DNA from: Ignavibacteriales bacterium
GTDB lineage: Bacteria; Bacteroidota; Ignavibacteria; Ignavibacteriales; Ignavibacteriaceae
Length of the DNA: 32,676 bases
Assembly (NCBI GenBank): GCA_016182615.1
Contig: JACPGF010000448.1
Span: 1-32,676, forward strand
Direction: 5' to 3'
Part shown: one piece after another, positions 13,341-29,573 of the stretch
Position numbering within the stretch: position 1 is the first letter of the stretch
Layout: each line of letters begins with the position of its first letter
The notes under the pieces: model-generated
What the model saw: only the letters and a program-made list of their open reading frames with translations
Told to the model about the DNA's origin: nothing
Databases searched by the model: none
Translations under genes and position numbers: made by a program

Positions 13341-14351
13341 TTACATGGTTAAAGACATGATTGCTTTTGCCGTGTGCAGCCTGTTTTCAGCTTCGTCAAA
13401 CACGATTGAAATTTCAGGGTTATCCAAAATTTCATCGGTTACTTCTTTGTTGCGGTCTGCCGGTAAAGCGTGCATTAATTTAACGTTTTTATCTGCTAAT
13501 TTAATGCGCCTGTCATCACAAATCCAATCTTTGTATTTTGCAATGTTCTGTTTCATTTCGGCTTTGCACGCATCTTCGTTTGCAAGGTAGGTTTCTTCGC
13601 CATAGAAACCGAATCCGCCCCAGTTTTTAGGGATAACAATATGCGCGCCTTCGAAAGCCTCATCCATATTGTCAGTAAATTTCAAGCTGCCACCGCCCTT
13701 TTGTGCATTTAATTGTGCTTTTTCAACAATGTGTTTGCTCAGCGGAAACTCTTTCGGATGGGCAACGGTAACGTCTATTCCATAACGGGGAAACAACATA
13801 ATTTGTGTCTGCGGAACCGAAAGCGGTTTTGAATGGGATTCGGCATACGCCCAACTTACGGTTACCTTCAGGTTTTTTGTATTTTTTCCACAATGTTCAA
13901 AAATGGTCATCAAGTCTGCAAGTCCCTGGAACGGGTGATACATATCATCCTGTAGCGACATAACCGGACGGGTTGAGTACTTTGCCATTTCTTCGATATA
14001 TTTTAAACCGGTGCCATAAAAACAATTACGGCAGGCAATACCATGCCCCATACGCGAAAGGATTATCGCAGTATCTTTCGGTACTTCACCGTGTGAAATC
14101 TGCATTTTATCCGGGGTTAAATCGTGCGCGTGGCCGCCAAGCTGCGTCATGCCCGCTTCCATACTATTGCGGGTGCGGGTTGATTGTTCAAAAAACATCA
14201 TGAACAACGTTTTATCCTGTAAATATCTTGTTGATTCACCAAGCGCGAATTTACGTTTCAAATCGAACGCGGTTTCGAAAACGGTGTCAAGCTCCTGTTT
14301 GGTCCAGGTGTCCTCTGTAATAAAATGTCTGCCTTTAAGATTGGATACCAT
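13341..14351 (-). CDS. Ornithine/aspartate-type carbamoyltransferase, YgeW-like
   Basis: This 336-residue transcarbamoylase has the carbamoyl-phosphate loop STRTR (57-61), KMQISHGE (82-89), HPFQGLADLMT (139-149) and the C-terminal VFDEAENRLHTAKAI (318-331). The family moves a carbamoyl group from carbamoyl phosphate to an amino acceptor. The K-x-QI-x-HGE segment resembles the knotted YgeW branch, while the C-terminal end resembles ornithine carbamoyltransferase. The ornithine-binding HCLP loop reads HALP (294-297), so the usual Cys is missing and the acceptor may not be ornithine. It starts 16 nt after the YgeY-type hydrolase gene. The same partnership exists in the E. coli ygeWXY island, which supports the YgeW-like reading. 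Confidence 0.85.
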   Translation of the reverse strand: MVSNLKGRHFITEDTWTKQELDTVFETAFDLKRKFALGESTRYLQDKTLFMMFFEQSTRTRNSMEAGMTQLGGHAHDLTPDKMQISHGEVPKDTAIILSRMGHGIACRNCFYGTGLKYIEEMAKYSTRPVMSLQDDMYHPFQGLADLMTIFEHCGKNTKNLKVTVSWAYAESHSKPLSVPQTQIMLFPRYGIDVTVAHPKEFPLSKHIVEKAQLNAQKGGGSLKFTDNMDEAFEGAHIVIPKNWGGFGFYGEETYLANEDACKAEMKQNIAKYKDWICDDRRIKLADKNVKLMHALPADRNKEVTDEILDNPEISIVFDEAENRLHTAKAIMSLTM

Positions 14352-14367
14352 CGTGTCCTCTTCTCTG

Positions 14368-15561
14368 TTATATTATGTGACAAAAATATGCGTAAAATGC
14401 AGATGCCTTAACAAGGTCATCAACCGGTACTTTTTCGTTTGGTGCATGTGCAAGAGCTTCGTTACCGGGACCAAAGCCTATCGCGGGTATCTTATACACA
14501 CCATTAATCATAATACCGTTTGTCGAAAAAGTCCATTTGTCAACAACCGGGGCGGTGCCGAATAAATCGGTATATGTTTTAATGCCGGTTTGCACAATAG
14601 GGGTATCTTCTGCAAGTTTCCAGGTTGGGAAATATTTTTCCATACCGTATTCAGTTCCGGTAAATCCTTTTTCGCTGTAGTTTAGCACTTCTACTTTAGC
14701 TCCAAACTCTTTCACAATTTCTTCAATCTGAGATACGGCGAGTGCTTTGTCCTCACCCCAGGTCAGGCGGCGGTCAAGGTGAATTTTGCAAAAGTCGGAG
14801 ACAGCACATAATGAAGGGCTCGAGGAAACCATTTCGGTAACCGTTACCGTGCCTTTGCCGAGGAACGGGTCAAACATCAAACGCTCGTTTAACTGTTCGA
14901 TAGCAAGAGCGGCTTTTGAAGCCATGTAGATAGCGTTAACACCACGCTCAGGGGCTGAACCATGTGAAGATACACCGTGGAACGATACCTCTATTTCCAT
15001 GCGCCCGCGGTGACCGCGATAAACTTTACAATCGGTCGGTTCAGTAATAATGGCAAAATCGGGACGGATTTTTTCTTCTTCAACAAGATATTTCCAGCAC
15101 AGGCCGTCGCAATCCTCTTCCATAACGGTACCGGTAAAATACACGGTAACATCATTTAAAAGATTCGTTTCTTTTAATATACGCCCGGCGGTAATAAACG
15201 CTGCAACACCGGACTTCTGATCAACAGTACCTCTGCCATACACAAAACCTCCGCTAATCTCACCGCTGAATGGGTCTTTATCCCAATTGTTCAGGTTGCC
15301 GGTATCAACGGTATCGATGTGGCCGTCGATGACTATGATTTTTTTTCCGTTACCGATCCTGCCTATAACATTGCCAAGGCCGTCGATACGGGCTTCATCA
15401 AAGCCTGCTTCTTTCATTTGCGCAATGATAACTTCCGTTACTTCTTTTTCTTGAGTGCTCAAAGATTTGGCGTGTATCATTTTAGAAAGGTTTTGCGCGG
15501 TATAACCGCTGTACTGCTTCGCTAACGCGAGAATTTGTTCAGAAAGTGCCATACTAATCAT
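14368..15561 (-). CDS. ygeY: M20 family metallohydrolase, YgeY-like
   Basis: This 397-residue M20-type dinuclear zinc hydrolase has metal ligands and catalytic residues in order: His81-x-Asp83 (GHIDTVD), Asp114 (RGTVDQKSG), Glu148-Glu149 (VMEEDCDG), Glu174 (ITEPTD) and a late His in EALAHAPNEKV. YRGHRGRMEIEVSFHG opens the dimerisation domain. The pattern fits the YgeY family of selenium-metabolism-linked hydrolases, related to acetylornithine deacetylase and carboxypeptidases. The substrate is not known. It is the first gene of a two-gene operon with the carbamoyltransferase, which suggests that one enzyme makes or uses a carbamoylated or deacylated amino acid for the other (inference). Two in-frame ATGs (15561, 15552) are possible starts, and neither has a clear Shine-Dalgarno. 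Confidence 0.85.
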   Translation of the reverse strand: MISMALSEQILALAKQYSGYTAQNLSKMIHAKSLSTQEKEVTEVIIAQMKEAGFDEARIDGLGNVIGRIGNGKKIIVIDGHIDTVDTGNLNNWDKDPFSGEISGGFVYGRGTVDQKSGVAAFITAGRILKETNLLNDVTVYFTGTVMEEDCDGLCWKYLVEEEKIRPDFAIITEPTDCKVYRGHRGRMEIEVSFHGVSSHGSAPERGVNAIYMASKAALAIEQLNERLMFDPFLGKGTVTVTEMVSSSPSLCAVSDFCKIHLDRRLTWGEDKALAVSQIEEIVKEFGAKVEVLNYSEKGFTGTEYGMEKYFPTWKLAEDTPIVQTGIKTYTDLFGTAPVVDKWTFSTNGIMINGVYKIPAIGFGPGNEALAHAPNEKVPVDDLVKASAFYAYFCHII

Positions 15562-15968: not shown

Positions 15969-17282
15969 TCAGGAGGCTTCTTCAAGCGTTACTAGAAAAA
16001 CCTCGTTTTCTGCATACCCATTATCAATACTGAACGCAAGAAGATTAGTTGAAACATCGTAGTCTTGTATTCTTCCAGTTATTGGATGGCTACATTTGAT
16101 TTTAAAATTAGCGTAAACAAGTGCATCCTCATTAATTTCGTATAATTCAAGTAATAGTCCGTCATCTTCCTTTTCGTTATTTACTTCATTGTAATAACTG
16201 TTCGTATCAGATCCAGAAGAGAAAATTACACTATCAAGCTCATCATCCGATATTTCTTGATATTTTGTGTCCTCATCCGTATCTGTGTAATACTCCTCGC
16301 CGGCTTGGTTTTCATTATTAAGTGCCTCCTCCGTACATGTTCCAGTTCCTTGAGCAATACCTTTCCCGCCATCAGTCGAATAGAATTGTTTTTGTTCATC
16401 CGAATTTTTTAATTTACTTTGCTTGTTTGCATGGGTAACTTCATTTGCCATTGTTTTAACTGCTTTGGATCCACTTGTAGGAAATACTCCATCTCCTTGC
16501 TTAAGACTTATACTTGTAGTTGTCACGGCTCTTCCCGATGGGGTGTACACGGAATGTGTTGTTGCCCGGCTTCTTAAACTATTTCCTGATTTGAATGTCC
16601 AAAGCTGGTTAGAATTATTTAGTACTGCATTATGCCCCTCTCGATATGTTGATGAGGTGCGATATGCCAATCTTATAGCTGCTGTTATATGGCTATTGTT
16701 TGGTTTTGCGACTAGCATTCCATCCGGGTCAATAGAGTTTACTGGGTTGTTTAAACAATAATTATAAGAGCTCCAACCCGGGTACTTGTCTGCAAGCGGG
16801 TCAACATTTAGCCACCGGCCAAGTTCGCTGTCGTAATACCGCGCGCCGTGGTAGTTTAAACCGCTTTCGGTGTCGCGCTCTTTGCCCGTAAAGTCGTACC
16901 GCTCGTTTGGTGAACTGTTGTTATAACTTCTTAGTATTTCGCCAAAGGCATAATAATCCTGCGCGTTGAGAACTGTACCCGTTGTGTCTATGGTTACACG
17001 GTTGCTGCCCAAATGGTCTTGCACGTAGTAGCGGCGGCTGTCCACGCGCAGCTTTACCATTATTTCTTCATTGGTTTCAGGGTCTATCCATATAGCATCA
17101 CGGCTGCCAACATCCACCCGTCCAATGCTGCCGTTGCCAAACAGGTTAAAATACTCGTAACCCTCGGTACTGCTGTGCAGTGCCATCTCGCGGCCGGTAT
17201 GGTCGCGGATGTACCGCTCCGTTACACCGCCTTTTATTTTTTCTATGCGGTTACCGCCCTCATCATACCGGTATTTTACCAT
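15969..17282 (-). CDS. Orphan Rhs core plus toxin tip module (module 4, NEVTH tip)
   Basis: This 437-residue frame begins inside the RHS core at MVKYRYDEGGNRIEKIKGGV and carries the core to IDPDG (residue 188). It then has a unique 249-residue tip. It lacks the signal peptide and YD repeats of the full gene, so it looks like a stored tip rather than an exported protein. The tip is polar and acidic in its middle (TDTDEDTKYQEISDDELDS). It contains TMANEVTHANK with Asn280-Glu281-x-x-His284, aligned by eye with the HExxH of modules 1 and 2, but with Asn instead of the first His. It may be an inactivated or altered protease, or the resemblance may be chance. No partner gene follows. The nearest upstream gene belongs to module 3. 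Confidence 0.75.
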   Translation of the reverse strand: MVKYRYDEGGNRIEKIKGGVTERYIRDHTGREMALHSSTEGYEYFNLFGNGSIGRVDVGSRDAIWIDPETNEEIMVKLRVDSRRYYVQDHLGSNRVTIDTTGTVLNAQDYYAFGEILRSYNNSSPNERYDFTGKERDTESGLNYHGARYYDSELGRWLNVDPLADKYPGWSSYNYCLNNPVNSIDPDGMLVAKPNNSHITAAIRLAYRTSSTYREGHNAVLNNSNQLWTFKSGNSLRSRATTHSVYTPSGRAVTTTSISLKQGDGVFPTSGSKAVKTMANEVTHANKQSKLKNSDEQKQFYSTDGGKGIAQGTGTCTEEALNNENQAGEEYYTDTDEDTKYQEISDDELDSVIFSSGSDTNSYYNEVNNEKEDDGLLLELYEINEDALVYANFKIKCSHPITGRIQDYDVSTNLLAFSIDNGYAENEVFLVTLEEAS

Positions 17283-17826: not shown

Positions 17827-19074
17827 TTATGGCTCCATTAAATCATTTGCAATTCTTTCGCCTAAGTTGCTGCCTGCATACGCTCCAGCAAAGCCCCCGA
17901 CTAATCCACCAACAACACCCCCGACTGCAGTGCCCACTCCGGGACATAAGCCTGTACCTATTGCTGCTCCAAGTTCGGCACCCGTTCCTGCGCCAGCAAC
18001 TGCACCTGCCCATCCACCAGCGACACTACCAACTGTACTAATTGTATTAGCACCAGCTTGGCCTCCATCCATTTGCAAAGCAGAACCAATTCTATACGCG
18101 TCTATTGCAACTGCAATTGGAGTTGCAACTTTCGAAGCCCCATCGATAAATCTCCCTGTTTTTGAGAGGGATTCGAAAGCTGGGGTTGACAACGGAGTAT
18201 GTGGGTCAATCTGACCCGGTATATTAACATTCAAATGAGGATTTTTTACGTAACCATGTGCCCCATCCACTCTCACTGCAGGTTCCCCTACGGGTTTACC
18301 ATTTTTTACTCTTCCGCTTTTTGTATTTGCTATTTCCACCGTTGTTGAGCCTCCCTTGGCTTTTCGAACTTTATATTCTTGGTTATTCCCGGTTTTTGCT
18401 CCCTTAGCAGCATTTGAGGCCTTCGCACTAACAGAGTCTCTGCCATCCGGGTCTATCACATTCACCGGATTATTCATACAATAATTATATCCGCTCCATT
18501 CAGGGTACTTGTCCGCAAGCGGGTCAACATTTAGCCACCGGCCAAGTTCGCTGTCGTAATACCGCGCGCCAAAGTAATCGAGGTTGGTCTCTGTATCACG
18601 TTCTTTTCCCGTGAAGTAATACCTCTCGTTTGGCGAGCTGTTGTTATAACTCCTTAGTATTTCGCCAAAGGCGTAATAGTCCTGCGCGTTGAGTACTGTA
18701 CCCGTTGTGTCTATGGTTACACGGTTGCTGCCCAAATGCTTGTCCCTTTGGGAGTCCTGCACGTAGTAGCGGCGGTTGTCCACCCGCAGCTTTACCATTA
18801 TTTCCTCATTGGTTTCAGGGTCTATCCATATAGCATCACGGCTGCCAACATCCACCCGGCCAATGCTGACTGTGCCAAACAGGTTAAAATACTTGTAACC
18901 CTCGGTACTGCTGTGCAGTGCCATCTCGCGGCCGGTATGGTCGCGGATGTACCGCTCCGTTACACCGCCTTTTATTTTTTCTATGCGGTTACCACTCTCA
19001 TCGTAACGGTATTTTACCATACCCTGCGGGGTGCTCATCTGCAGGGGCAGGTTACGGTGGTCGTAGGTAAACAT
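17827..19074 (-). CDS. Orphan Rhs core plus glycine-zipper toxin tip (module 3)
   Basis: This 415-residue frame begins at MFTYDHRNLPLQMSTPQGMV, matching FDYDHRNLPLQ of the full-length gene. It carries the core to IDPDG (residue 211), then a 204-residue tip. The tip's last 70 residues are rich in Gly and Ala in a GxxxG-like pattern (GAVAGAGTGAELGAAIGTGL, VVGGLVGGFAGAYAGSNLGE). This is typical of glycine-zipper segments that insert into membranes. A membrane-acting toxin is inferred, and a translocation aid is the alternative. The core copy has a five-codon insertion (SQRDK) after YYVQD. The ATG has a weak AAGG 8 nt upstream, so it could be translated on its own, but it lacks a signal peptide. 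Confidence 0.75.
   Translation of the reverse strand: MFTYDHRNLPLQMSTPQGMVKYRYDESGNRIEKIKGGVTERYIRDHTGREMALHSSTEGYKYFNLFGTVSIGRVDVGSRDAIWIDPETNEEIMVKLRVDNRRYYVQDSQRDKHLGSNRVTIDTTGTVLNAQDYYAFGEILRSYNNSSPNERYYFTGKERDTETNLDYFGARYYDSELGRWLNVDPLADKYPEWSGYNYCMNNPVNVIDPDGRDSVSAKASNAAKGAKTGNNQEYKVRKAKGGSTTVEIANTKSGRVKNGKPVGEPAVRVDGAHGYVKNPHLNVNIPGQIDPHTPLSTPAFESLSKTGRFIDGASKVATPIAVAIDAYRIGSALQMDGGQAGANTISTVGSVAGGWAGAVAGAGTGAELGAAIGTGLCPGVGTAVGGVVGGLVGGFAGAYAGSNLGERIANDLMEP
18442..19072 (-). repeat. RHS core repeat, copy 3
   Basis: This is the longest of the truncated copies. It is homologous to the full gene from the IDPDG codons to the YDHRN codons, where similarity ends at about 19065-19072. It carries the AIWIDPETNEEIMVKL block shared with copy 4 and a 15-nt insertion (SQRDK) found in no other copy. 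Confidence 0.85.
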
Positions 19075-19653: not shown

Positions 19654-20517
19654 TTAATTTTCTTTTAGTTCGTCCATTATTTTATTTTCAACCTTTTTCG
19701 GCTTCACCTCTCCATCTTTTCTTTCTTCTCCTTTCAATTGGGTTTGTTTGTCTTTATTTATCTCACTCTCATCTGTCGCATGAACTATCTCATGACCAGC
19801 AACAGCCCCAATTACTTGATCAACAGTTAATCCAGCCGCTTTGCTACTTTTTTCCATAAAAGTATTAATTGAGCCTTCATTAATAGTTATTGACGCTTCT
19901 TTTATACCAATTGAGCCATTTGTATTTTGGAATTGTCCATAATTATCTTTTGGATTGAAATTACCTTGGATAGTTTCCCCTAAACGAAAAATGGTCTTAT
20001 CTCCTTCCTTTCGAATTACTGTCTTATCCGAAATATCCAGATGTACCTTTATTTTTGATTTTACCACTTGATCAAGCATAAGTCCTCCTGTTTTGGTCAT
20101 TGCTAATGCATTGCAAATTCTTTTAACAGCCGATGTCGCATTTTTACCAAATTTGAGTGTGCCATCCTTTTGTCTAACTATACTTATCTCTTTATTTTTT
20201 GAATCAACCACTTTTCTTCCATCCGGGTCAACAGAGTTTACCGGATTATTCATACAATAATTATATGGGCTCCACCCCGGGTATTTGTCAGCAAGCGGGT
20301 CAACATTTAACCACCGGCCTATTTCGCTATCATAATACCGCGCGCCAAAGTAGTTTAATCCGCTTTCGGTGTCTCTTTCTTTACCCGTATAATCATACCT
20401 CTCGTTTGGCGAGCTGTTGTTATAACTTCTTAGTATTTCGCCAAAGGCGTAATAGTCCTGCGCGTTCAGCACAGTGCCGGTGGTGTCTATGGTTACCCGA
20501 TTACCGAAAAAATGCAT
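19654..20517 (-). CDS. Orphan Rhs core plus HExxH metalloprotease-like tip (module 2)
   Basis: This 287-residue frame starts MHFFGNRVTIDTTGTVLNAQ, so it keeps only the last third of the RHS core (RYYDSEIGRWLNVDPLADKY) up to DPDG at residue 100. A 187-residue tip follows. It contains GAVAGHEIVHATDESE with His242-Glu243-x-x-His246, a zincin motif. A late VENKIMDEL helix could supply a third ligand. Zinc-protease tips are known among polymorphic toxins, but the peptide target cannot be read. It has no signal peptide or YD repeats, so it should act only after being joined to the full gene. The first four residues come from non-core DNA at the breakpoint. Confidence 0.78.
   Translation of the reverse strand: MHFFGNRVTIDTTGTVLNAQDYYAFGEILRSYNNSSPNERYDYTGKERDTESGLNYFGARYYDSEIGRWLNVDPLADKYPGWSPYNYCMNNPVNSVDPDGRKVVDSKNKEISIVRQKDGTLKFGKNATSAVKRICNALAMTKTGGLMLDQVVKSKIKVHLDISDKTVIRKEGDKTIFRLGETIQGNFNPKDNYGQFQNTNGSIGIKEASITINEGSINTFMEKSSKAAGLTVDQVIGAVAGHEIVHATDESEINKDKQTQLKGEERKDGEVKPKKVENKIMDELKEN
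20219..20505 (-). repeat. RHS core repeat, copy 2 (shortest)
   Basis: Homology to the full gene runs from the DPDG codons (20219) to the NRVTIDTTG codons and stops near 20505. This copy is about 290 bp, against about 580-630 bp in the other copies, so any recombination with the full gene must use this short stretch. Confidence 0.85.
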
Positions 20518-20628
20518 GCAAATTTTGCTAAATTGAGAATATACGCATAATGTAACTACTCAGTTGATTTTAATAGCATCGAAATTCAAAATTCGCACTT
20601 TTCTTTATTATAAATATATATTAGATGG

Positions 20629-20645
20629 GATTTTAAGTTAAAATC
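20629..20645. promoter_or_regulatory. 17-bp palindrome upstream of the module 2 Rhs fragment
   Basis: GATTTTAA and TTAAAATC flank a single G, forming a perfect dyad 112 nt before the module 2 start. It could be an operator, but the sequence around it is very AT-rich and chance is possible. Confidence 0.25.
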
Positions 20646-20694
20646 AAAACATAATAATGAGTAATTACCATATAAGAATCTATTTTAAAAATTA

Positions 20695-21420
20695 TTACTC
20701 AAACTGTTTATCTAAAAGGAACCCACCTCCAAAACCTTCTAAACGCACAAGATTGAATTTTTCATCAAACCAAATAAGAACATCTTTTTCACTTTCACAA
20801 AAATACGGTTTAAAGTAAAACTCATATACATTCAAAAACGATCTATTAAAAAATTTCACTTCTTTATAGTGTTTTAAAAGGATTGATAATCCAAAGTAAC
20901 TTGCTGTTTCTGTTCCAACAGCATTTATATCGAAAACTTTGTTTAATACCGATTGAAACTTTATGTACAGTTTACCATTTTTGACAATAAACTTGGCATA
21001 CTTTGCGCCTTTTTTACTTACTGGGATAGCTGTAGAAATAACTACAATTTCCTTTGCATTTGTTTTTTGTAAAAACAACGCACCATCGTATACACCTAAA
21101 GAATCATAAAAATAGCCAAGAGATTCCTCTTCAATAGTATCTTTACGATTGAAAAAAACCTCAGAGTTTTGCATCCAAAATGCGTGTTCGATTATACTAT
21201 TTTTTCTATGCGCTTGTTGCCAATATTTTGAAAACCATTTTTTAAAGGTTTTATTCTTGAGGGAATTGAAACTTTTAGCATCTGTTATTGAATCTTGAAA
21301 CAATTCAAAGTAACAAGAATTTTGGTTTATGGATTTATGCCAGTTGTAGTGGAAAAACACTTGTGAAAATGACAAAAAATTGACATTGATAAACAATAAT
21401 ACTATTATTAGAGATTTCAT
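20695..21420 (-). CDS. Candidate exported immunity protein for the full-length Rhs toxin
   Basis: This 241-residue protein starts with a clear signal peptide (MKSLIIVLLFINVNFLSFSQ). The remainder is polar and aromatic-rich and belongs to no family I recognise. It begins 2 nt after the Rhs stop codon with an AGGAAA Shine-Dalgarno inside the toxin gene end, so the two are translationally linked. Its position marks it as the cognate immunity gene of the HEVDH tip. An exported immunity protein implies that the toxin acts outside the cytoplasm. It is AT-rich compared with the Rhs core. The role is inferred from position only. Confidence 0.65.
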   Translation of the reverse strand: MKSLIIVLLFINVNFLSFSQVFFHYNWHKSINQNSCYFELFQDSITDAKSFNSLKNKTFKKWFSKYWQQAHRKNSIIEHAFWMQNSEVFFNRKDTIEEESLGYFYDSLGVYDGALFLQKTNAKEIVVISTAIPVSKKGAKYAKFIVKNGKLYIKFQSVLNKVFDINAVGTETASYFGLSILLKHYKEVKFFNRSFLNVYEFYFKPYFCESEKDVLIWFDEKFNLVRLEGFGGGFLLDKQFE

Positions 21421-21422
21421 GC

Positions 21423-24400
21423 TTATTTCCTAATTGGTTTCCAATTCACTTGCTTATAAGCAGCGCTATTATATCCCCAAAAACTCTTCACAATTTTATC
21501 AATTTCTTTATTACTAACACCCAAGTTATATTTCTTGTTTACTTCTTTAACAAGTGATATCCTATCATTGATATATTGTGGTATAGATATAGCTTCTTCT
21601 TGATTATTATCTCTCTCAATATAATTCTTAAATGTCTCTTCAACCAATCCATGATTCTTTCTAACATCAAAATCAACATGATCAACTTCATGTCCAGCCG
21701 TTTCAACAGTTTCCAAGAAACTTTTGTCAGAAGTATTGTTCATATTTAGTTTTTCAGATAAAGTAATGAGATACTTATCTTCTTTACCTTCTGATAAATC
21801 AGCCGTCCCATTTTTATCACCCATTGTAGTGGTAGGCAGTTTCCCTTTCTTAATAACTACTTTGACTTTCTCAAATTTCCCACCCTTCCTGAATGGTGCT
21901 AATCTTTTTCTACCGACTTCTGAATTCGCATAGTCTTGCCAAGCCTGATCATCTTGCACTCCGGAATCATCAATCTCCATGCCATTGGGATCAATAAACC
22001 GTAGTGGATTATTCATACAGTAATTATATCCGCTCCAACCCGGGTATTTATCCGCAAGCGGGTCAACATTTAGCCACCGGCCAAGTTCGCTGTCGTAATA
22101 CCGCGCACCGTGGTAGTTTAAACCGCTTTCGGTGTCTCTTTCTTTACCGGTATAATCATACCGCTCGTTTGGCGAGCTATTGTTATAACTTCTTAGAATT
22201 TCGCCAAAGGCGTAATAGTCCTGCGCGTTAAGCACAGTGCCGGTAGTGTCTATGGTTACACGGTTGCTGCCCAAGTGGTCTTGCACGTAGTAGCGGCGGC
22301 TGTCCACGCGTACTTTCGATGTTTCTGCAACACCGCTCTCAGGGTCAATAAAAACCACATCACGGCTGCCAACATCCACCCGGCCAATGCTGCCGTTGCC
22401 AAACAGGTTAAAATACTTGTACCCTTCCGTACTGCTGTGCAGTGCCATCTCGCGGCCGGTATGGTCGCGGATGTACCCCTCCGTTACACCGCCTTGTATT
22501 TTTTCTATGCGGTTACCGCTCTCATCATACCGGTATTTTACCATACCCTGCGGGGTGCTCATCTGCAGGGGCAGGTTGCGGTGGTCGTAATCAAACGAGC
22601 TTAAACCCTTGCGGAGATGAAAGGTTATGTTACCCCGGCTGTCGTACAAAAACGGGTATGCCTGGGAACCGTTATTCTCATCAACTGTAATTCCGGCAAG
22701 CAGGTTATTGCCCTGCTGGTACTGGTAGGCTATTTGTTTCCCGCTCCGGTACTTGCTAAGCATATTTCCGTCTTCGTCGTAGGTAAAGTATTCAGCTTTG
22801 TCTGCATCGGTGTTGCAAAATGCCTGCAACAGTTCCTTCCTGTTATTGTACATGTAATTAAACCCCAGCTGCGCCCACTGCCCGCCCATGCCTGCCTGAA
22901 TGATGTTCTGCTGCTCAACGTTGCCATCAGGATAATACCCCAAACTTTCGGTAAACACGCCCGGCATGCTAATGCCTGTTACCCAGCCGCGGAACTGGTT
23001 ATAGGTATAAGCTATTTTTTTGTTGCCCGCGTAGGGTAAAACAAGGCTGTCTATTTGTGCTGCACGATTATACACGTACCGTGCATCGGGCACTGCCGTT
23101 GCCCTGTTATTTACCATACTGCTAAATACCTGCGAAAGTTTTCCTTCATGATCGTAATTATACCAATAATACATTTTATTGTCAACAGATTGTTTTACCA
23201 GGTTGCCCGCGTGGTCGTAACTGTTCTCGGTAATTACCCATGAGCCGCCCGAAGGGAAACACTGGTAAAATTTGGCAACGCGGCCCCGCGAGTCATAGGA
23301 GTACATCTTGTAACCCCATGGCCCGCCCGGTTTGTCGCGGTGTGCCAGGGCCATTAACCTGCCAACCGTGTTTGCAAGGTTATTAAGCCATGAAACAACC
23401 GGCATTTTTTTGAACGCACCAAACACCACCTTTTTATCGTACATGTATTGCATAATCATGTTTGCCGTATCGGCCTCGTGGTTCTCGAAACTGTTCGGGG
23501 CTGAAACGTATTCATCATCCCCGTTAAGCTGCGGCCACAGCGCGGTATTTATTACGCCTTTAAGAAACGGCCTGCCTAATTTATCGTAACGGGTATAAAC
23601 AATATTTTCAGCAGTGCTGCTGCCATCCCTTTTTACAAAACGCAGCCTGCCATACTTGTCGTACTTCATCCCTGTAAACCCTTCATCGGGCGAGGATTTG
23701 GCAGTAAGGTTACCTAAATTATCGTACGTGTAGGTAGTTTGTTTACCCATCGGTGAGGTTACTGCCAGCAGCCGGTTCAATTGGTCGTAAGCAAAAGTTG
23801 TGGCAGCCCCGCCTGCCCGCGTAGAGGTAACATTGCCAAAACGGTCTAAAAACTTGAAAACGGTATCGTTTTTCTCGTCAACCAGCATTTCCTGTTCAAA
23901 GCATTGGTTATCGTTATGTAAAGTGTAAACCATTTTCTGCTGCGTAGAACCGCTCTCCGTGCCTGCCAAAAATTTTACCGATACGGGTCTGCCGAATCCA
24001 TCGTAAGATGTAGCCGTCCTGCGGTTCATGGCATCACTGTTAAAATCGGGCTTGCCGGTAAAGTTAAAACTGGTGGAGTCGCGCAAAGCGAAGGACAGAT
24101 CCGGCTGCATAGCCTTTACCGTCCGCAGTTGCCCGTAGGAGTCGAAGCTGAACAAGGAGGCTATACTCCTGAAATCGTTCACATCCATGCTCAGGCGCTT
24201 CGTCATCGTTACTTCGTTCCGGGTGTCATCAAAGGCGTACTCAACCGAGCCCGCGCTCACCCCGTCTATAACATTATTAAAAACTCCGGTAATAAACATT
24301 GCGGGTTTAACTGCCGGATCGAACTGGAAAGATTTCACGCCAAAGTTGGTGTCACACGATTCCTGAATAGAAAGAGGAGCATAGAATTTAATTGCCGCCA

Positions 24401-27400
24401 ATTTTTTATTAGTGTTTTTAAACTCCTGCAAAACAGAGGTCATGTTAATTTCCAGCGTTGAGTTATTGTTGAACTGTCCGCTTACTGCAGTACCGGCCTG
24501 AAGCACGTTGTTCGCGTTATAGAAGTATGGCACCATGATGAAAACATTGTCCTGGCACCCGGAAATGGTAGCGTTAAGCGCTTTTACTTTATAAACCGCG
24601 CTGTTTAACGATACCACATTTTGCAGCATATCTTTGGCGAAATAATGGTATAAAAAACCGGTGCAAATCCGCGTAGAATCTACGGGGTCATTTCCAGTCC
24701 ACGGTTCATCAGTTCCGGGGCCGCTATAACTTGCTGTATCGGAAGCAGTTGTTGGTGCATCCGGATCTTCAGAAATTTCACCGGAACCAATTTCACCCTC
24801 GGTGGCTTCGTTTTTAACGGCTCCATCAATTTCACCCGTACCGGGAGGGAGACCGATATGGCTTTTAATGTATCCTGCTGCCATGAAAGAATGATCTCCG
24901 TTAGATACAACCGGTGGATACGAGGTGCTCTTGTAATACTGGTAAAGCGTTGTCTTGTCCGCCGGGAATGAAAACTGTTGGGTTACTGCCAAAGGGTTAA
25001 CGGGGGTGTTTGGATTAATATATCCCCCCGGAAACCTTGCCTTTTCCAGCCTGTTCAAAGCATCGTAATCATAATCCGAGATAAATCCATTAGCGTTCAC
25101 CTCAACAAGGGGCTGCCCGGTGCCTGAATAATAAGTCCGCTGTTTGATTGTATCTTCTATCCCATTAGCATTCGGGTAAATGAGCTGCTGCTCGGCTGGC
25201 ATGGTTGTATTATTCCAAATCTCCGCACTAACCGAAGAGTCTCTTACCACTCCATCGGTATAGACAATTTTACCGGGATACGTGTAAATCCATTTGTATT
25301 TTGGTGGATACAGTTGAACCATCTGCCCGTTTATCAGCCCCCACCCGTCATCGGAACAATACGTGCGTAAGGTATCGTACACGTTATAATTAAACTCCAA
25401 CCGGGCACCGTTACTAAAAAGTTTTTTCCGCAGGGAATACCTGTTAAGGTTAGGGATGGTGTCGGGGGCTTTTACAATTTGCGGTGATGTGTTGTAAATA
25501 TATTTAACCGTGTCAAGTGTCAGCATGTTAATTTCGGCTGTCGGTTTACAATACAACTCAATTGCACTGGTGGGCCCGGCATAAAAATTATCGCCGTAAT
25601 ACAATGTTTTTTTATGGCTGTAAACGGCCGCATCGGTATAGATTTTTTCCTCTGCCAATAAATTAGTATGATAGAAAGAGCTGTTACCGTTAAGAGTACT
25701 TTCCGGAGACCGGTATGCAGTATATTTGTACAAATTTTTCATGGAATCTTTTTCAGTTGTTCTGCCGATACGGTATTTTGTGTCATTAAGAACCTGCCTG
25801 TTTGTAATCTCGAAATAATTATACTCGTAGCTCTTTGCATTCTTGAAAAACACATCAGCACCCTTTAAGGAAAACTCTGTCGTTCTTTTCAGATCAAACA
25901 GACCCGTGTATGCATGCCAAAAATTTGATTCAAATGTCCCTTCGTCCCATTCGTTTACAATTAAGGTACCCGATCCATCTTCCAGTATGGTTTTTTCATA
26001 CATCAGTTTTGTTTGCCCCGAGTAATCGCTCGCGTTTCCATCCCTTGGCAAAGTGGGATAATAATTAAAAACCTTTTCTGTTTTTATTTCCGGTGGTGCA
26101 GTGTTGGCAGCTAAGTCAAGCAAATTTCTTCGGGTAATAGTAGTTTTCATACTATCTTTTTTATACTTAGACTCAACAGTTAAATAGCGGTTAACAGCTG
26201 TTGCATTGCCGTATTCATAAACCGTTTCATCAACCGTTTTCCGTATCCCGGCAAACAAGTTACTTTTAGTGACCCTTGATACCATGTAATTTGTCTGCCT
26301 GTCGCGGTTAGAAAGCTGGTAGAAATCGTCTAAATTCACCCCCGAAGTATTTTTTAGTTTTACGGGAGAATATATCGTGTTAATTGGCACATAGTTAAAC
26401 TTGGAAATTTTCCCTGAAAAATATTTTATCGAATCGATACAATGCGCGGTGGTGTTAAAGTGTACCGGAGGAATTGCAGTCCCGTCAAAGCTATAGGTTT
26501 TTACAGGATCGGCATACTTGAAAAAATCAATCCTGCCCCCGAAGTCTTTAATGTATTCCACCTCGATACTGCGGTCATGCGAAGAAGACTGCCGTGTTGT
26601 ATCATACCCCGAACTCAAATCGCTTAAGGCGATGGTAACCGGGTCATAGTTCAGCGGCCTGTTGCCTAAAAATATCTCGATACCCCTGAGCAGTGTTTGC
26701 CCGATGAAGGCGAATTTTACATAATTAAACTTGAAAGCCAGCCCCCTGCAAAGAGTGGTTTGGGTGCTATATTCCGAAAAAACGCATTTTTCAAACATCC
26801 TTCTGCCGGAATTCTTTCCGGTTTCGTACGGCAGATAGGAAAATACGAGCGTGTCGCCCTGCTGGTTTATAACATTCTTCAGGTACCAGATGGTGCGCAA
26901 CGGGCGGGTTAAATTAGAGGCATAGTCGGGATAATGAACAGAATCTTCTTCAAAGTAGTATTGCAGACCGTCACCCGGCCAATAGGTCATTTTCCGTAAT
27001 ATCTGTGTCCCATCAATGAAGTTTACATTAGCTAAAGCCGGGTTTGACCTGACGGTTTCAGAATAATTCCCTATCCGCAAATTATGCTCGGGACTATTAT
27101 TAACAAGCGTTTTTTTTGAGCCATCTGACATAAGTAACTGTATTTGGTCAAACTTATGAGGCGATTCATTAAAATATCTTTCGGTACAATAATCATAACC
27201 GGGTACGTGAAAAACAGTGTACTCGCCATTTTGCGGGCCATTACCGGATTCCTTTAACGCGGAAAACCACCTGTTTTCGAAATTTAATACCAGTAATGCA
27301 AACCCTTTAAAACCAAGAATCCACTCCGGCTTATTAAGTGAAAAACCGGACTGTTCGCCCCAATCCAAACCAATCCCGTCATAAAAAACCCGGTGCTCAA

Positions 27401-27641
27401 CATTTGCATTGTAGGTTAAGCTAACGCTTCCATCCATGCCCCCTGCAAATTGCAATGGGTAACCATATACAACACTCAAATTGCCGTCGTAATCGGAGAT
27501 GATTTCGTTACCCGAGGATGAAAAACTAGCAGAATTGACGAAACCACGCTCGTTGAATTTTTCTGAAGTAGATTCCTCAAGAAGGCTTTGTGAATAAAAT
27601 GCCTGGCTGAAAACTATTGACAAAATAAAAAAGAACCTCAT
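21423..27641 (-). CDS. Full-length Rhs/YD-repeat toxin with HExxH metalloprotease-like tip
   Basis: This 2072-residue protein has a signal peptide (MRFFFILSIVFSQAFYSQS). The large N-terminal part includes a DNRLRE-like beta domain near 1000-1130. YD repeats run from about 1170 to 1800 (for example TTYTYDNLGNLTAKSSPDEG). The conserved RHS core follows (RYYDSELGRWLNVDPLADKY), ending at IDPNG (residue 1887). The last 185 residues are the variable tip, with TAGHEVDHVDFD (His1984-Glu1985-x-x-His1988), a zincin motif, and a possible third ligand in NNQEEAIS. RHS shells are known to encapsulate the tip toxin and deliver it to neighbouring cells. No T6SS gene is in the window, so export by Sec and then an unknown route is inferred. 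A GAAAGGG Shine-Dalgarno lies 6 nt before the ATG. It is the only gene here with all parts of an Rhs effector. Confidence 0.9.
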   Translation of the reverse strand: MRFFFILSIVFSQAFYSQSLLEESTSEKFNERGFVNSASFSSSGNEIISDYDGNLSVVYGYPLQFAGGMDGSVSLTYNANVEHRVFYDGIGLDWGEQSGFSLNKPEWILGFKGFALLVLNFENRWFSALKESGNGPQNGEYTVFHVPGYDYCTERYFNESPHKFDQIQLLMSDGSKKTLVNNSPEHNLRIGNYSETVRSNPALANVNFIDGTQILRKMTYWPGDGLQYYFEEDSVHYPDYASNLTRPLRTIWYLKNVINQQGDTLVFSYLPYETGKNSGRRMFEKCVFSEYSTQTTLCRGLAFKFNYVKFAFIGQTLLRGIEIFLGNRPLNYDPVTIALSDLSSGYDTTRQSSSHDRSIEVEYIKDFGGRIDFFKYADPVKTYSFDGTAIPPVHFNTTAHCIDSIKYFSGKISKFNYVPINTIYSPVKLKNTSGVNLDDFYQLSNRDRQTNYMVSRVTKSNLFAGIRKTVDETVYEYGNATAVNRYLTVESKYKKDSMKTTITRRNLLDLAANTAPPEIKTEKVFNYYPTLPRDGNASDYSGQTKLMYEKTILEDGSGTLIVNEWDEGTFESNFWHAYTGLFDLKRTTEFSLKGADVFFKNAKSYEYNYFEITNRQVLNDTKYRIGRTTEKDSMKNLYKYTAYRSPESTLNGNSSFYHTNLLAEEKIYTDAAVYSHKKTLYYGDNFYAGPTSAIELYCKPTAEINMLTLDTVKYIYNTSPQIVKAPDTIPNLNRYSLRKKLFSNGARLEFNYNVYDTLRTYCSDDGWGLINGQMVQLYPPKYKWIYTYPGKIVYTDGVVRDSSVSAEIWNNTTMPAEQQLIYPNANGIEDTIKQRTYYSGTGQPLVEVNANGFISDYDYDALNRLEKARFPGGYINPNTPVNPLAVTQQFSFPADKTTLYQYYKSTSYPPVVSNGDHSFMAAGYIKSHIGLPPGTGEIDGAVKNEATEGEIGSGEISEDPDAPTTASDTASYSGPGTDEPWTGNDPVDSTRICTGFLYHYFAKDMLQNVVSLNSAVYKVKALNATISGCQDNVFIMVPYFYNANNVLQAGTAVSGQFNNNSTLEINMTSVLQEFKNTNKKLAAIKFYAPLSIQESCDTNFGVKSFQFDPAVKPAMFITGVFNNVIDGVSAGSVEYAFDDTRNEVTMTKRLSMDVNDFRSIASLFSFDSYGQLRTVKAMQPDLSFALRDSTSFNFTGKPDFNSDAMNRRTATSYDGFGRPVSVKFLAGTESGSTQQKMVYTLHNDNQCFEQEMLVDEKNDTVFKFLDRFGNVTSTRAGGAATTFAYDQLNRLLAVTSPMGKQTTYTYDNLGNLTAKSSPDEGFTGMKYDKYGRLRFVKRDGSSTAENIVYTRYDKLGRPFLKGVINTALWPQLNGDDEYVSAPNSFENHEADTANMIMQYMYDKKVVFGAFKKMPVVSWLNNLANTVGRLMALAHRDKPGGPWGYKMYSYDSRGRVAKFYQCFPSGGSWVITENSYDHAGNLVKQSVDNKMYYWYNYDHEGKLSQVFSSMVNNRATAVPDARYVYNRAAQIDSLVLPYAGNKKIAYTYNQFRGWVTGISMPGVFTESLGYYPDGNVEQQNIIQAGMGGQWAQLGFNYMYNNRKELLQAFCNTDADKAEYFTYDEDGNMLSKYRSGKQIAYQYQQGNNLLAGITVDENNGSQAYPFLYDSRGNITFHLRKGLSSFDYDHRNLPLQMSTPQGMVKYRYDESGNRIEKIQGGVTEGYIRDHTGREMALHSSTEGYKYFNLFGNGSIGRVDVGSRDVVFIDPESGVAETSKVRVDSRRYYVQDHLGSNRVTIDTTGTVLNAQDYYAFGEILRSYNNSSPNERYDYTGKERDTESGLNYHGARYYDSELGRWLNVDPLADKYPGWSGYNYCMNNPLRFIDPNGMEIDDSGVQDDQAWQDYANSEVGRKRLAPFRKGGKFEKVKVVIKKGKLPTTTMGDKNGTADLSEGKEDKYLITLSEKLNMNNTSDKSFLETVETAGHEVDHVDFDVRKNHGLVEETFKNYIERDNNQEEAISIPQYINDRISLVKEVNKKYNLGVSNKEIDKIVKSFWGYNSAAYKQVNWKPIRK
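21982..22596 (-). repeat. RHS core repeat, copy 1 (inside the full-length gene)
   Basis: This is the C-terminal core section of the full-length Rhs gene, the reference for the truncated copies at 16720-17296, 18442-19072 and 20219-20505. Many stretches are near-identical between copies. The block VVFIDPESGVAETSKV is special to this copy. Confidence 0.85.
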
Positions 27642-28130: not shown

Positions 28131-29573
28131 ATGTCCTTTCCCGATTGGATTGAAAAATTTCGAAAGCCAAAAACAGAAATTCGGTTTTTGAATGGTCAGT
28201 ATTATATCTATTCGATTTCTTATAAGTATTCAGCCGAATTGAAACGAACTAAGAAAATCACAGGGAAACTATTGGGAAAAATTACCGAAAACGATGGGTT
28301 CATACAAAGTCAAAAGGATAAACTTCGCGATATGCCACACGGGAGTATTCATGTCGCTGAATTCGGGGTTTATGAATTGTTTCTTTCTCATATGGAAAAG
28401 GAAACCAAATATCTTGAAAAAGCCTTTGCCGATTCTTATATCGATTGGAAACAAATAATTGCTATGGCAATGATCCGATTCATATATCAATCCCCTATAA
28501 AAATGATGGATTTTCATTGGTATAACTCTTACTTCCATACGCAGTGGGGTATCTCGTTGAGCGATAAACAGATATCAGCTCTGCTTCGTGAATTAGGCGA
28601 TAGCCGCGACAATATTTTGGCTTATTTCCGGCAGTTTTCCACAGTTGGAGCACATCTGTTAATTGACACGACCAATATTCCGAGTCGGTCAACGAAAATT
28701 GAAAGCGTTCGTCTTGGATATAGCAGAGACATGTCCTTTACGCCGCAAACAAATCTGTTCTTTATCTTCTCATTAGAACTACAAATGCCGGTTTATTACA
28801 GAGTAGTGCCGGGAAACATCAGGGATGTGAAGTCATTTACGCTCAGCCTCCAGGAAAGCGGAATTCCCAATGTCGTGATTGTGGCCGACAAAGGCTTCCA
28901 TTGAAATAAGAACATCAAATTACTTGATGAGTCAACGATGCGCTATGTTCTGCCTTTGCGGAGGAATAACTCATTAATAAACTATCGCCCTTTACAAAAA
29001 GGCGCAAAGAAGGAGCTTACGGATTATTTTGATTTTGACGGACGCATTATCTGGTATTATGAGCATATCAGTACCGGAAAGAGAGTGATCACCTTTTTTG
29101 ATCAACAATTAAAGGTTCAGGAAGAACAAGATTATTTGAGAAGAATCATTACGCATCCGGACGGATATACGAAGGAAAGTTTTTTCAAAAAACAATTCGA
29201 GTTGGGGACTTTGAGTTGCATCACCAATCTTCCGGATAGCGCTGAGAAAGTATATCACATTTACAAATGTCGTGGTCAGGTAGAACAAGTCTTTGATACG
29301 TATAAGAACTTTTTGGATGCTGATCGAACCTATATGCAAAATGAAAAGGCTCTCGATGGCTGGAGCTTTATCAATTTTTTAGCGGTTCAAGCTTACTACA
29401 AAATATATCAACGAATGAAGCAAAAAAAACTTCTGAAAAAGTTTTCAGTTGAGGATATAGTTCATATTGCCATGAAGAAGAGGAAACTACGAATAGGAAC
29501 TAGTTGGACAGATTCAGAGATAACTAAGAAACATATTGATCTAATTGCCAAGATTATGCCTCAGAAAACATAG
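28131..29573 (+). pseudogene. IS4-superfamily DDE transposase interrupted by one in-frame TGA
   Basis: Two frames (28131-28904 and 28938-29573) are in the same phase and together make one 480-codon transposase. They are separated only by TGA at 28902-28904 (codon 258) and 11 further sense codons. The catalytic Asp179 is in LLIDTTNIPSR and the second Asp253 is in VIVADKGFH, immediately before the TGA. Glu385 lies in YKCRGQVEQVFDTYK, an exact Y(2)R(3)E(6)K signature. Relatives usually carry a Ser, Tyr or Asn codon at the TGA position (DKGFYS-like), so a single substitution, such as TCA to TGA, explains it. Everything else is intact, so the inactivation looks recent. A sequencing error is also possible. 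Confidence 0.85.

Follow-up and report, generated by a model that had tools for sequence, protein, structure and literature searches.

What kind of toxin do Rhs proteins carry when two ends of a single array share nothing but the motif HExxH, and in which compartment would such toxins act? The question is raised by a 32,676-nucleotide stretch of DNA from an Ignavibacteriales bacterium (phylum Bacteroidota; assembly GCA_016182615.1, contig JACPGF010000448.1, positions 1 to 32,676; hereafter the window), in which a full-length Rhs gene is accompanied by shorter modules that join a fragment of the Rhs core to a different C-terminal tip. A preliminary description of the window had proposed that tip 1, on the full-length protein, and tip 2, on the module that we call module 2, are both zincins directed at a target in the envelope. 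Our analysis leads us to conclude that tips 1 and 2 are probably two different small zincin toxin domains of a Sec-exported Bacteroidota Rhs system, which would act in the envelope and be countered by exported antidotes.

Two unrelated tips with an HExxH motif

The Rhs-associated core of the 2072-residue protein ends at DPNG (starting at residue 1884), shortly before the variable tip, and module 2 has the same core end in the form of DPDG, starting at residue 97. Some 97 residues past its junction, tip 1 contains HEVDH (in GHEVDHVDFD; residues 1984-1988, window 21678-21692, minus strand), and tip 2 contains HEIVH (in GHEIVHATDE) about 142 residues past its own, at residues 242-246 of module 2, i.e., tip residues 142-146 (window 19780-19794, minus strand). 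These distances agree with the 90-140 residues originally given. When the tips were shuffled with their composition preserved, HExxH arose by chance in 0.28% of cases for tip 1 and 0.26% for tip 2, and the six-frame translation of the window holds the motif only three times: in the two tips and once opposite module 2's own motif.

Outside the motif the tips are, at the level of sequence, unrelated, as had been claimed: BLASTP found no match between them, and an hhalign comparison of the tip 2 family with tip 1 aligned just 11 columns around the motif, at a probability of 5%. In scans of Pfam and NCBIfam both tips stay below every family cut-off, and nothing is listed by PADLOC. We regard them as new sequence families of a toxin kind that is already known. 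Because HExxH peptidases are a standard, and a main, toxin category of Rhs systems (PMC3482391), the occurrence of two in one array could be a chance drawing from this pool, and the pair does not demonstrate the selection for a metalloprotease theme that the preliminary description read into it.

Tip 2 and its predicted zinc site

Relatives of tip 2 exist in other genomes. In addition to a distant relative in the phylum genome sample (L003), a profile scan of contigs from 84,980 species genomes recovered tips from Cytophagales (L005), Balneolaceae (L006, with the same sequence as L003 and apparently the same locus), Chitinophagaceae (L007) and Dysgonamonadaceae (L008 and L009). These relatives, from four Bacteroidota/Balneolaceae groups and at about 30% identity, all keep HExxH; in the six-sequence alignment H142, E143 and H146 never vary, nor do residues of the preceding stretch ITI.E..I or several N-terminal positions. 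The L003/L006 tip is cut by a TGA soon after the motif, and the other four relatives reach a similar end. In all four of the latter there is a Glu within E-x-[KR]-P, 22-24 residues past the second His and equivalent to E170 of tip 2. Since E170 is kept, whereas the later E177 is replaced by Gln in L005 and by Ala in L007, E170 is the best candidate for the third zinc ligand. The Balneolaceae relative (L006:3590-4471(+)) is borne not by a full Rhs core but by a short protein that has a signal peptide itself.

An AlphaFold2 model of tip 2 built from the six sequences reached a predicted local distance difference test score (pLDDT) of 84 and a predicted template modelling score (pTM) of 0.84. The model runs through a strand (107-113), three helices (114-123, 132-148 and 150-162), a loop and a last helix (171-186), which is the usual order of elements in a zincin core. 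HExxH falls within helix 132-148, in a block with pLDDT of 92-97, and the C-terminal helix opens directly after E170. The preliminary description had held that a motif not placed on one helix, or a match to a non-protease family, would speak against a zincin; in the tip 2 model the motif lies on a single helix, and no non-protease family was matched.

The weak similarities of tip 2 run in the same direction. The best non-significant Foldseek rows in the viral library are a Zn-dependent protease (probability 0.85) and a SprT-like protein (0.72), and many of the non-significant rows in the PDB are clostridial neurotoxin zincin light chains; the latter (E 0.5-6, redundant) were rejected as a fold match and indicate only a faint zincin resemblance. 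Among Pfam profiles, fragments of metallopeptidase models make weak contact: Peptidase_M13 touches the motif of tip 2 at E 0.002-0.0035, and in one of its relatives DUF5700, annotated as a 'putative zinc dependent peptidase', does so at E 0.0027. With one confident helix, a kept E170 and weak fold rows that are zincins, the reading of tip 2 as a zincin is well supported by alignment and model; for tip 1 the same reading is plausible, even likely. Because its model is confident and its candidate active site is defined, the tip 2 family lends itself to direct assays of toxicity in the periplasm.

Tip 1

Profile scans of tip 1 against Pfam and NCBIfam gave nothing but unconvincing Ig-domain and adhesin contacts. 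Support beyond the motif comes from a local match to L023, the sole positive evidence of this kind; this Rhs tip is a borderline member of Peptidase_M91 (PF14891), with 24.0 bits against a cut-off of 25. The tip 1 segment KLNMNNTS..DKSFLETVETAGHEVDHV aligns with KVNINKTTWENKTVTERAETIGHELEHV of L023 at 46% identity over 28 residues, with HExxH in register, and a longer alignment of the two ends at a Glu in both. When the GHExxH block was held fixed and the rest of tip 1 shuffled, this score was reached in 0.23% of 6000 trials. The hits of E 0.003-0.1 that were inspected proved to be coiled-coil-like or unrelated noise without an aligned HExxH, and L004 was dropped as a sensor histidine kinase-like protein.

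Exported neighbours and the envelope

A small gene with a Sec-type N-terminus starts a few bases after each of tips 1 and 2, and an exported or lipobox-bearing small protein follows all five relatives of tip 2. Exported neighbours also stand behind a third HExxH tip, which this genome carries on contig C151, and behind the M91 or M91-like tips L020-L023. Exported or lipobox-type neighbours thus follow all 12 of the HExxH tips that were examined, though the five relatives of tip 2 are not independent of one another. Three further C151 tips, of which two are paralogous with Imm26-type neighbours (one by profile, one by likeness) and one has an Imm53 neighbour, are followed by no protein with a signal-like N-terminus.

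In a 2012 survey of polymorphic toxins, immunity proteins were primarily cytoplasmic and secreted ones exceptional (PMC3482391), and VgrG2b, an HExxH gluzincin, is toxic in the periplasm but not in the cytoplasm and has an antidote with a signal peptide (PMC6899460). Taken together, the exported neighbours of the HExxH tips, that survey and the precedent of VgrG2b support an envelope target for both tips, in keeping with what the preliminary description had suggested. Exported immunity was described as exceptional in 2012 and yet lies behind every HExxH tip examined here, which suggests that it could be used in genomes as a simple marker of those Bacteroidota Rhs toxins that act in the envelope. 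In L022:1198-2553(+), an M91-like tip stands in one frame with an apparent exported immunity protein (MNAKFIITLLLCCFCTQGCFSQ...), so that either toxin and antidote have fused, or the assembly is in error, or a stop has been lost.

Comparison with known systems

One close parallel is the C-terminal metallopeptidase of VgrG2b with its immunity protein PA0261 in Pseudomonas aeruginosa (PMC6899460). As in the tips, an HExxH zincin-type domain forms the C-terminus of a delivery protein, and the small downstream gene with a signal peptide is matched here by the signal-like N-termini of both neighbours. Periplasmic action has been demonstrated for VgrG2b and is proposed for the tips by analogy; likewise, its third ligand is a downstream Glu, 44 residues past the second His, whereas in the tips a Glu is only a candidate, lying 22-24 residues past the second His in the tip 2 family. 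We found no sequence relation between VgrG2b and the tips. The vehicles also differ: VgrG2b rides a VgrG spike through the type VI secretion system (T6SS), whereas the Rhs protein here has a Sec-type signal and no VgrG or PAAR match, and no VipB was found in the genome, which is about 90% complete.

Tox-HopH1/Peptidase_M91 tips are HExxH metallopeptidases on Rhs cores of the same phylum, and they too have exported neighbours. Neither tip 1 nor tip 2 matches PF14891 (for tip 2, up to E of 1), a search of this genome with PF14891 gave matches on C151 only, and an hhalign comparison of Peptidase_M91 with the tip 2 family was not significant and left the motifs unaligned. The link of tip 1 to this family is indirect, by way of the borderline L023. 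Membership of tip 2 was rejected: its alignments with L021, L061 and module 4 beat shuffles but are out of register at the motif. Tox-MPTase1-5 are HExxH zincin-like domains that occur only as tips of RHS-type polymorphic toxins and are distantly related to Wss1 (PMC3482391); they resemble the tips in being small HExxH domains, and the weak fold rows of tip 2 include a SprT-like protein. Scans of Pfam-A and NCBIfam with the two tips listed none of these families at E of up to 1, the presence of all five in these libraries being unchecked.

The arrangement of the array recalls the orphan modules of enterobacteria, where, according to published accounts (PMC3150448, PMC3967940), a full-length gene likewise precedes modules that each combine a core fragment with another tip and immunity gene. 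Relative to those accounts, the core and the phylum differ here, and two of the modules have putatively exported immunity.

Weighing the alternatives

Several observations weigh against two envelope-acting zincins. Foldseek returned no match to the tip 2 model at E<=0.001 in the PDB or BFVD. Relatives of tip 1, sought in the phylum and order genome samples, in species-genome contigs and in viral, plasmid and phage collections, were not found, in a search whose species-genome scan demands near-exact 8-residue matches, such that distant relatives may exist. The single-sequence AlphaFold2 model of tip 1 is unusable (pLDDT 44), and its match to L023 is one of about seven such comparisons made. As for the neighbours, signal sequences were called by hydrophobicity and inspection with no trained predictor, and the antidotes are putative, their role being assumed from position. 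Moreover, two C414 tips that lack HExxH (L073) also have exported or membrane-anchored neighbours. On account of this pair we gave up the idea that only HExxH tips have exported immunity; exported neighbours would accordingly mark envelope action, not proteolysis.

That tip 1 has neither relatives, a profile match nor a usable model would be accounted for if tip 2 alone were a zincin, with HEVDH a coincidence in some other envelope-acting toxin. We consider this unlikely, though worth keeping in view: the motif is rare in shuffled tip 1, and its strand-helix context is in register with L023. It is quite improbable that the tips are instead metallopeptidases meant for the cytoplasm of target bacteria or for eukaryotic cells, like effectors of the NleD/HopH1 type. 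M91 domains, which are of that type, do occur as Rhs tips in this phylum, and the closest thing to tip 1 is an M91-like tip; but the exported antidote-like neighbours extend to the M91 tips themselves, and a dedicated antidote points to bacterial targets.

Another account makes the HExxH domains autoprocessing proteases that release a toxin from the Rhs shell without being the toxin themselves, a role known from PVC-metallopeptidases that bear the signature HExxHxxQ-E (PMC3482391). Both domains are C-terminal, however, with no further toxin domain beyond them, and the modelled zincin core of tip 2 reaches its last residue; the HExxHxxQ string is found in neither tip, and an immunity-like gene directly follows each, all of which makes the account very improbable. 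Scarcely credible, in our view, is a decaying array in which module 2, and perhaps tip 1, is unexpressed or inactive and the motifs are relics. Module 2 begins inside the core without an export signal, and the L003/L006 relative has a stop right after the motif, as decay would predict. Yet both reading frames are open with HExxH intact, the adjacent antidote-like genes are intact as well, and orphan rhs-CT/immunity modules of this form in enterobacteria are described as usable after recombination (PMC3967940). We therefore retain two zincin toxins as the preferred reading.

Layout of the array

Profile scans matched TIGR03696 and RHS_repeat in the full-length protein, and TIGR03696 in the modules too. 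Judged from sequence, the locus is an RHS polymorphic toxin system with orphan tip modules, i.e., four interchangeable toxin ends (Table 1). The downstream modules have core DNA in common, at 85-91% identity over 260-601 bp, and their tips differ. Because the core DNA of module 2 is 91% identical to that of the full-length gene over 260 bp, this module is best read as a stored cassette.

Table 1. Features of the Rhs array, with positions in the window
Feature	Position	Strand	Remarks
Full-length Rhs protein, 2072 aa, carrier of tip 1	21423..27641	-	Sec-type signal sequence, RHS repeats, Rhs-associated core
Tip 1, 185 aa after DPNG, putative zinc metallopeptidase toxin	21426..21980	-	
E2015-E2016 (QEEA), candidate third zinc ligand of tip 1	21594..21599	-	Suggested by alignment with L023
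Putative immunity gene of tip 1, 241 aa	20695..21420	-	N-terminal signal-like sequence MKSLIIVLLFINVNFLSFSQ
Module 2: short Rhs core fragment and tip 2, 287 aa, probable stored cassette	19654..20517	-	
Tip 2, 187 aa, putative zinc metallopeptidase toxin	19657..20217	-	Relatives in other genomes
Glu of E-V-K-P, tip residue 170, candidate third zinc ligand	19708..19710	-	Kept in relatives with intact end
Putative immunity gene of tip 2, 137 aa	19234..19647	-	N-terminal signal-like sequence MKKLFFFLLVILAVKVQLQ
Module 3: core fragment and glycine-zipper-like tip without HExxH	17827..19074	-	
Putative immunity gene of module 3, 169 aa	17313..17822	-	No clear signal sequence
Module 4: core fragment and tip with NEVTH in place of HExxH	15969..17282	-	

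Proposed mechanism

Given a signal sequence, no T6SS features and no VipB found, it is likely that the Rhs protein is exported by Sec and then displayed on the surface or released. Once freed from the Rhs shell, the tip would reach the envelope of a competitor and cut a protein or peptide there. The two His of HExxH would bind the zinc, probably joined by a Glu further downstream, for which E170 is the candidate in tip 2 and E2015 or E2016 the candidate in tip 1; water would be activated by the motif's own Glu. The producer would be shielded outside the cytoplasm by the exported antidote encoded by the next gene. Tip 1 would be the mounted warhead, and the module 2 cassette could replace it by recombination within the shared core.

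A broader possibility, which we hold to be rather unlikely, is that Bacteroidota Rhs arrays maintain a dedicated set of envelope-acting zinc proteases, i.e., several undescribed zincin families swapped as cassettes together with exported, sometimes lipid-anchored antidotes, and including variants in which Asn replaces the first zinc His (NEVTH of module 4, NEADH on C151) and whose action would involve no proteolysis or would rely on a different metal.

Other tips and flanking genes

Protease-like tips are common in this assembly, in which 3 of about 14 readable tips carry HExxH. The third (L072:4190-5437(-), contig C151) reads HEFVHGQQ...EAEAFE and has an exported neighbour of 345 residues; its HExxHxxQ string resembles the PVC-metallopeptidase signature (PMC3482391). 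In two tips NExxH occupies a place like that of HExxH, namely NEVTH in module 4 (window 16431-16445) and NEADH on C151 (L072:2034-2804(-)). The C151 tip has a weak Peptidase_M91 match (18.9 bits) and an exported neighbour, and its alignment with module 4 exceeds shuffles (1/400) with NExxH in register; such tips may be zincin-like domains in which the first zinc His has been lost. A form one residue longer, HExxxH, occurs at a comparable place in L024 (M91-matching, HEFLGH) and in L005:5103-6374 (HEFKKH), the latter being followed by a lipobox-bearing neighbour.

Directly upstream of the full-length Rhs gene, a DDE transposase in two pieces (window 28131-29573, plus strand) suggests a broken insertion sequence beside the array. 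Past the other end of the array (window 13341-15561, minus strand), a gene for a YgeY-family hydrolase adjoins a carbamoyltransferase gene.

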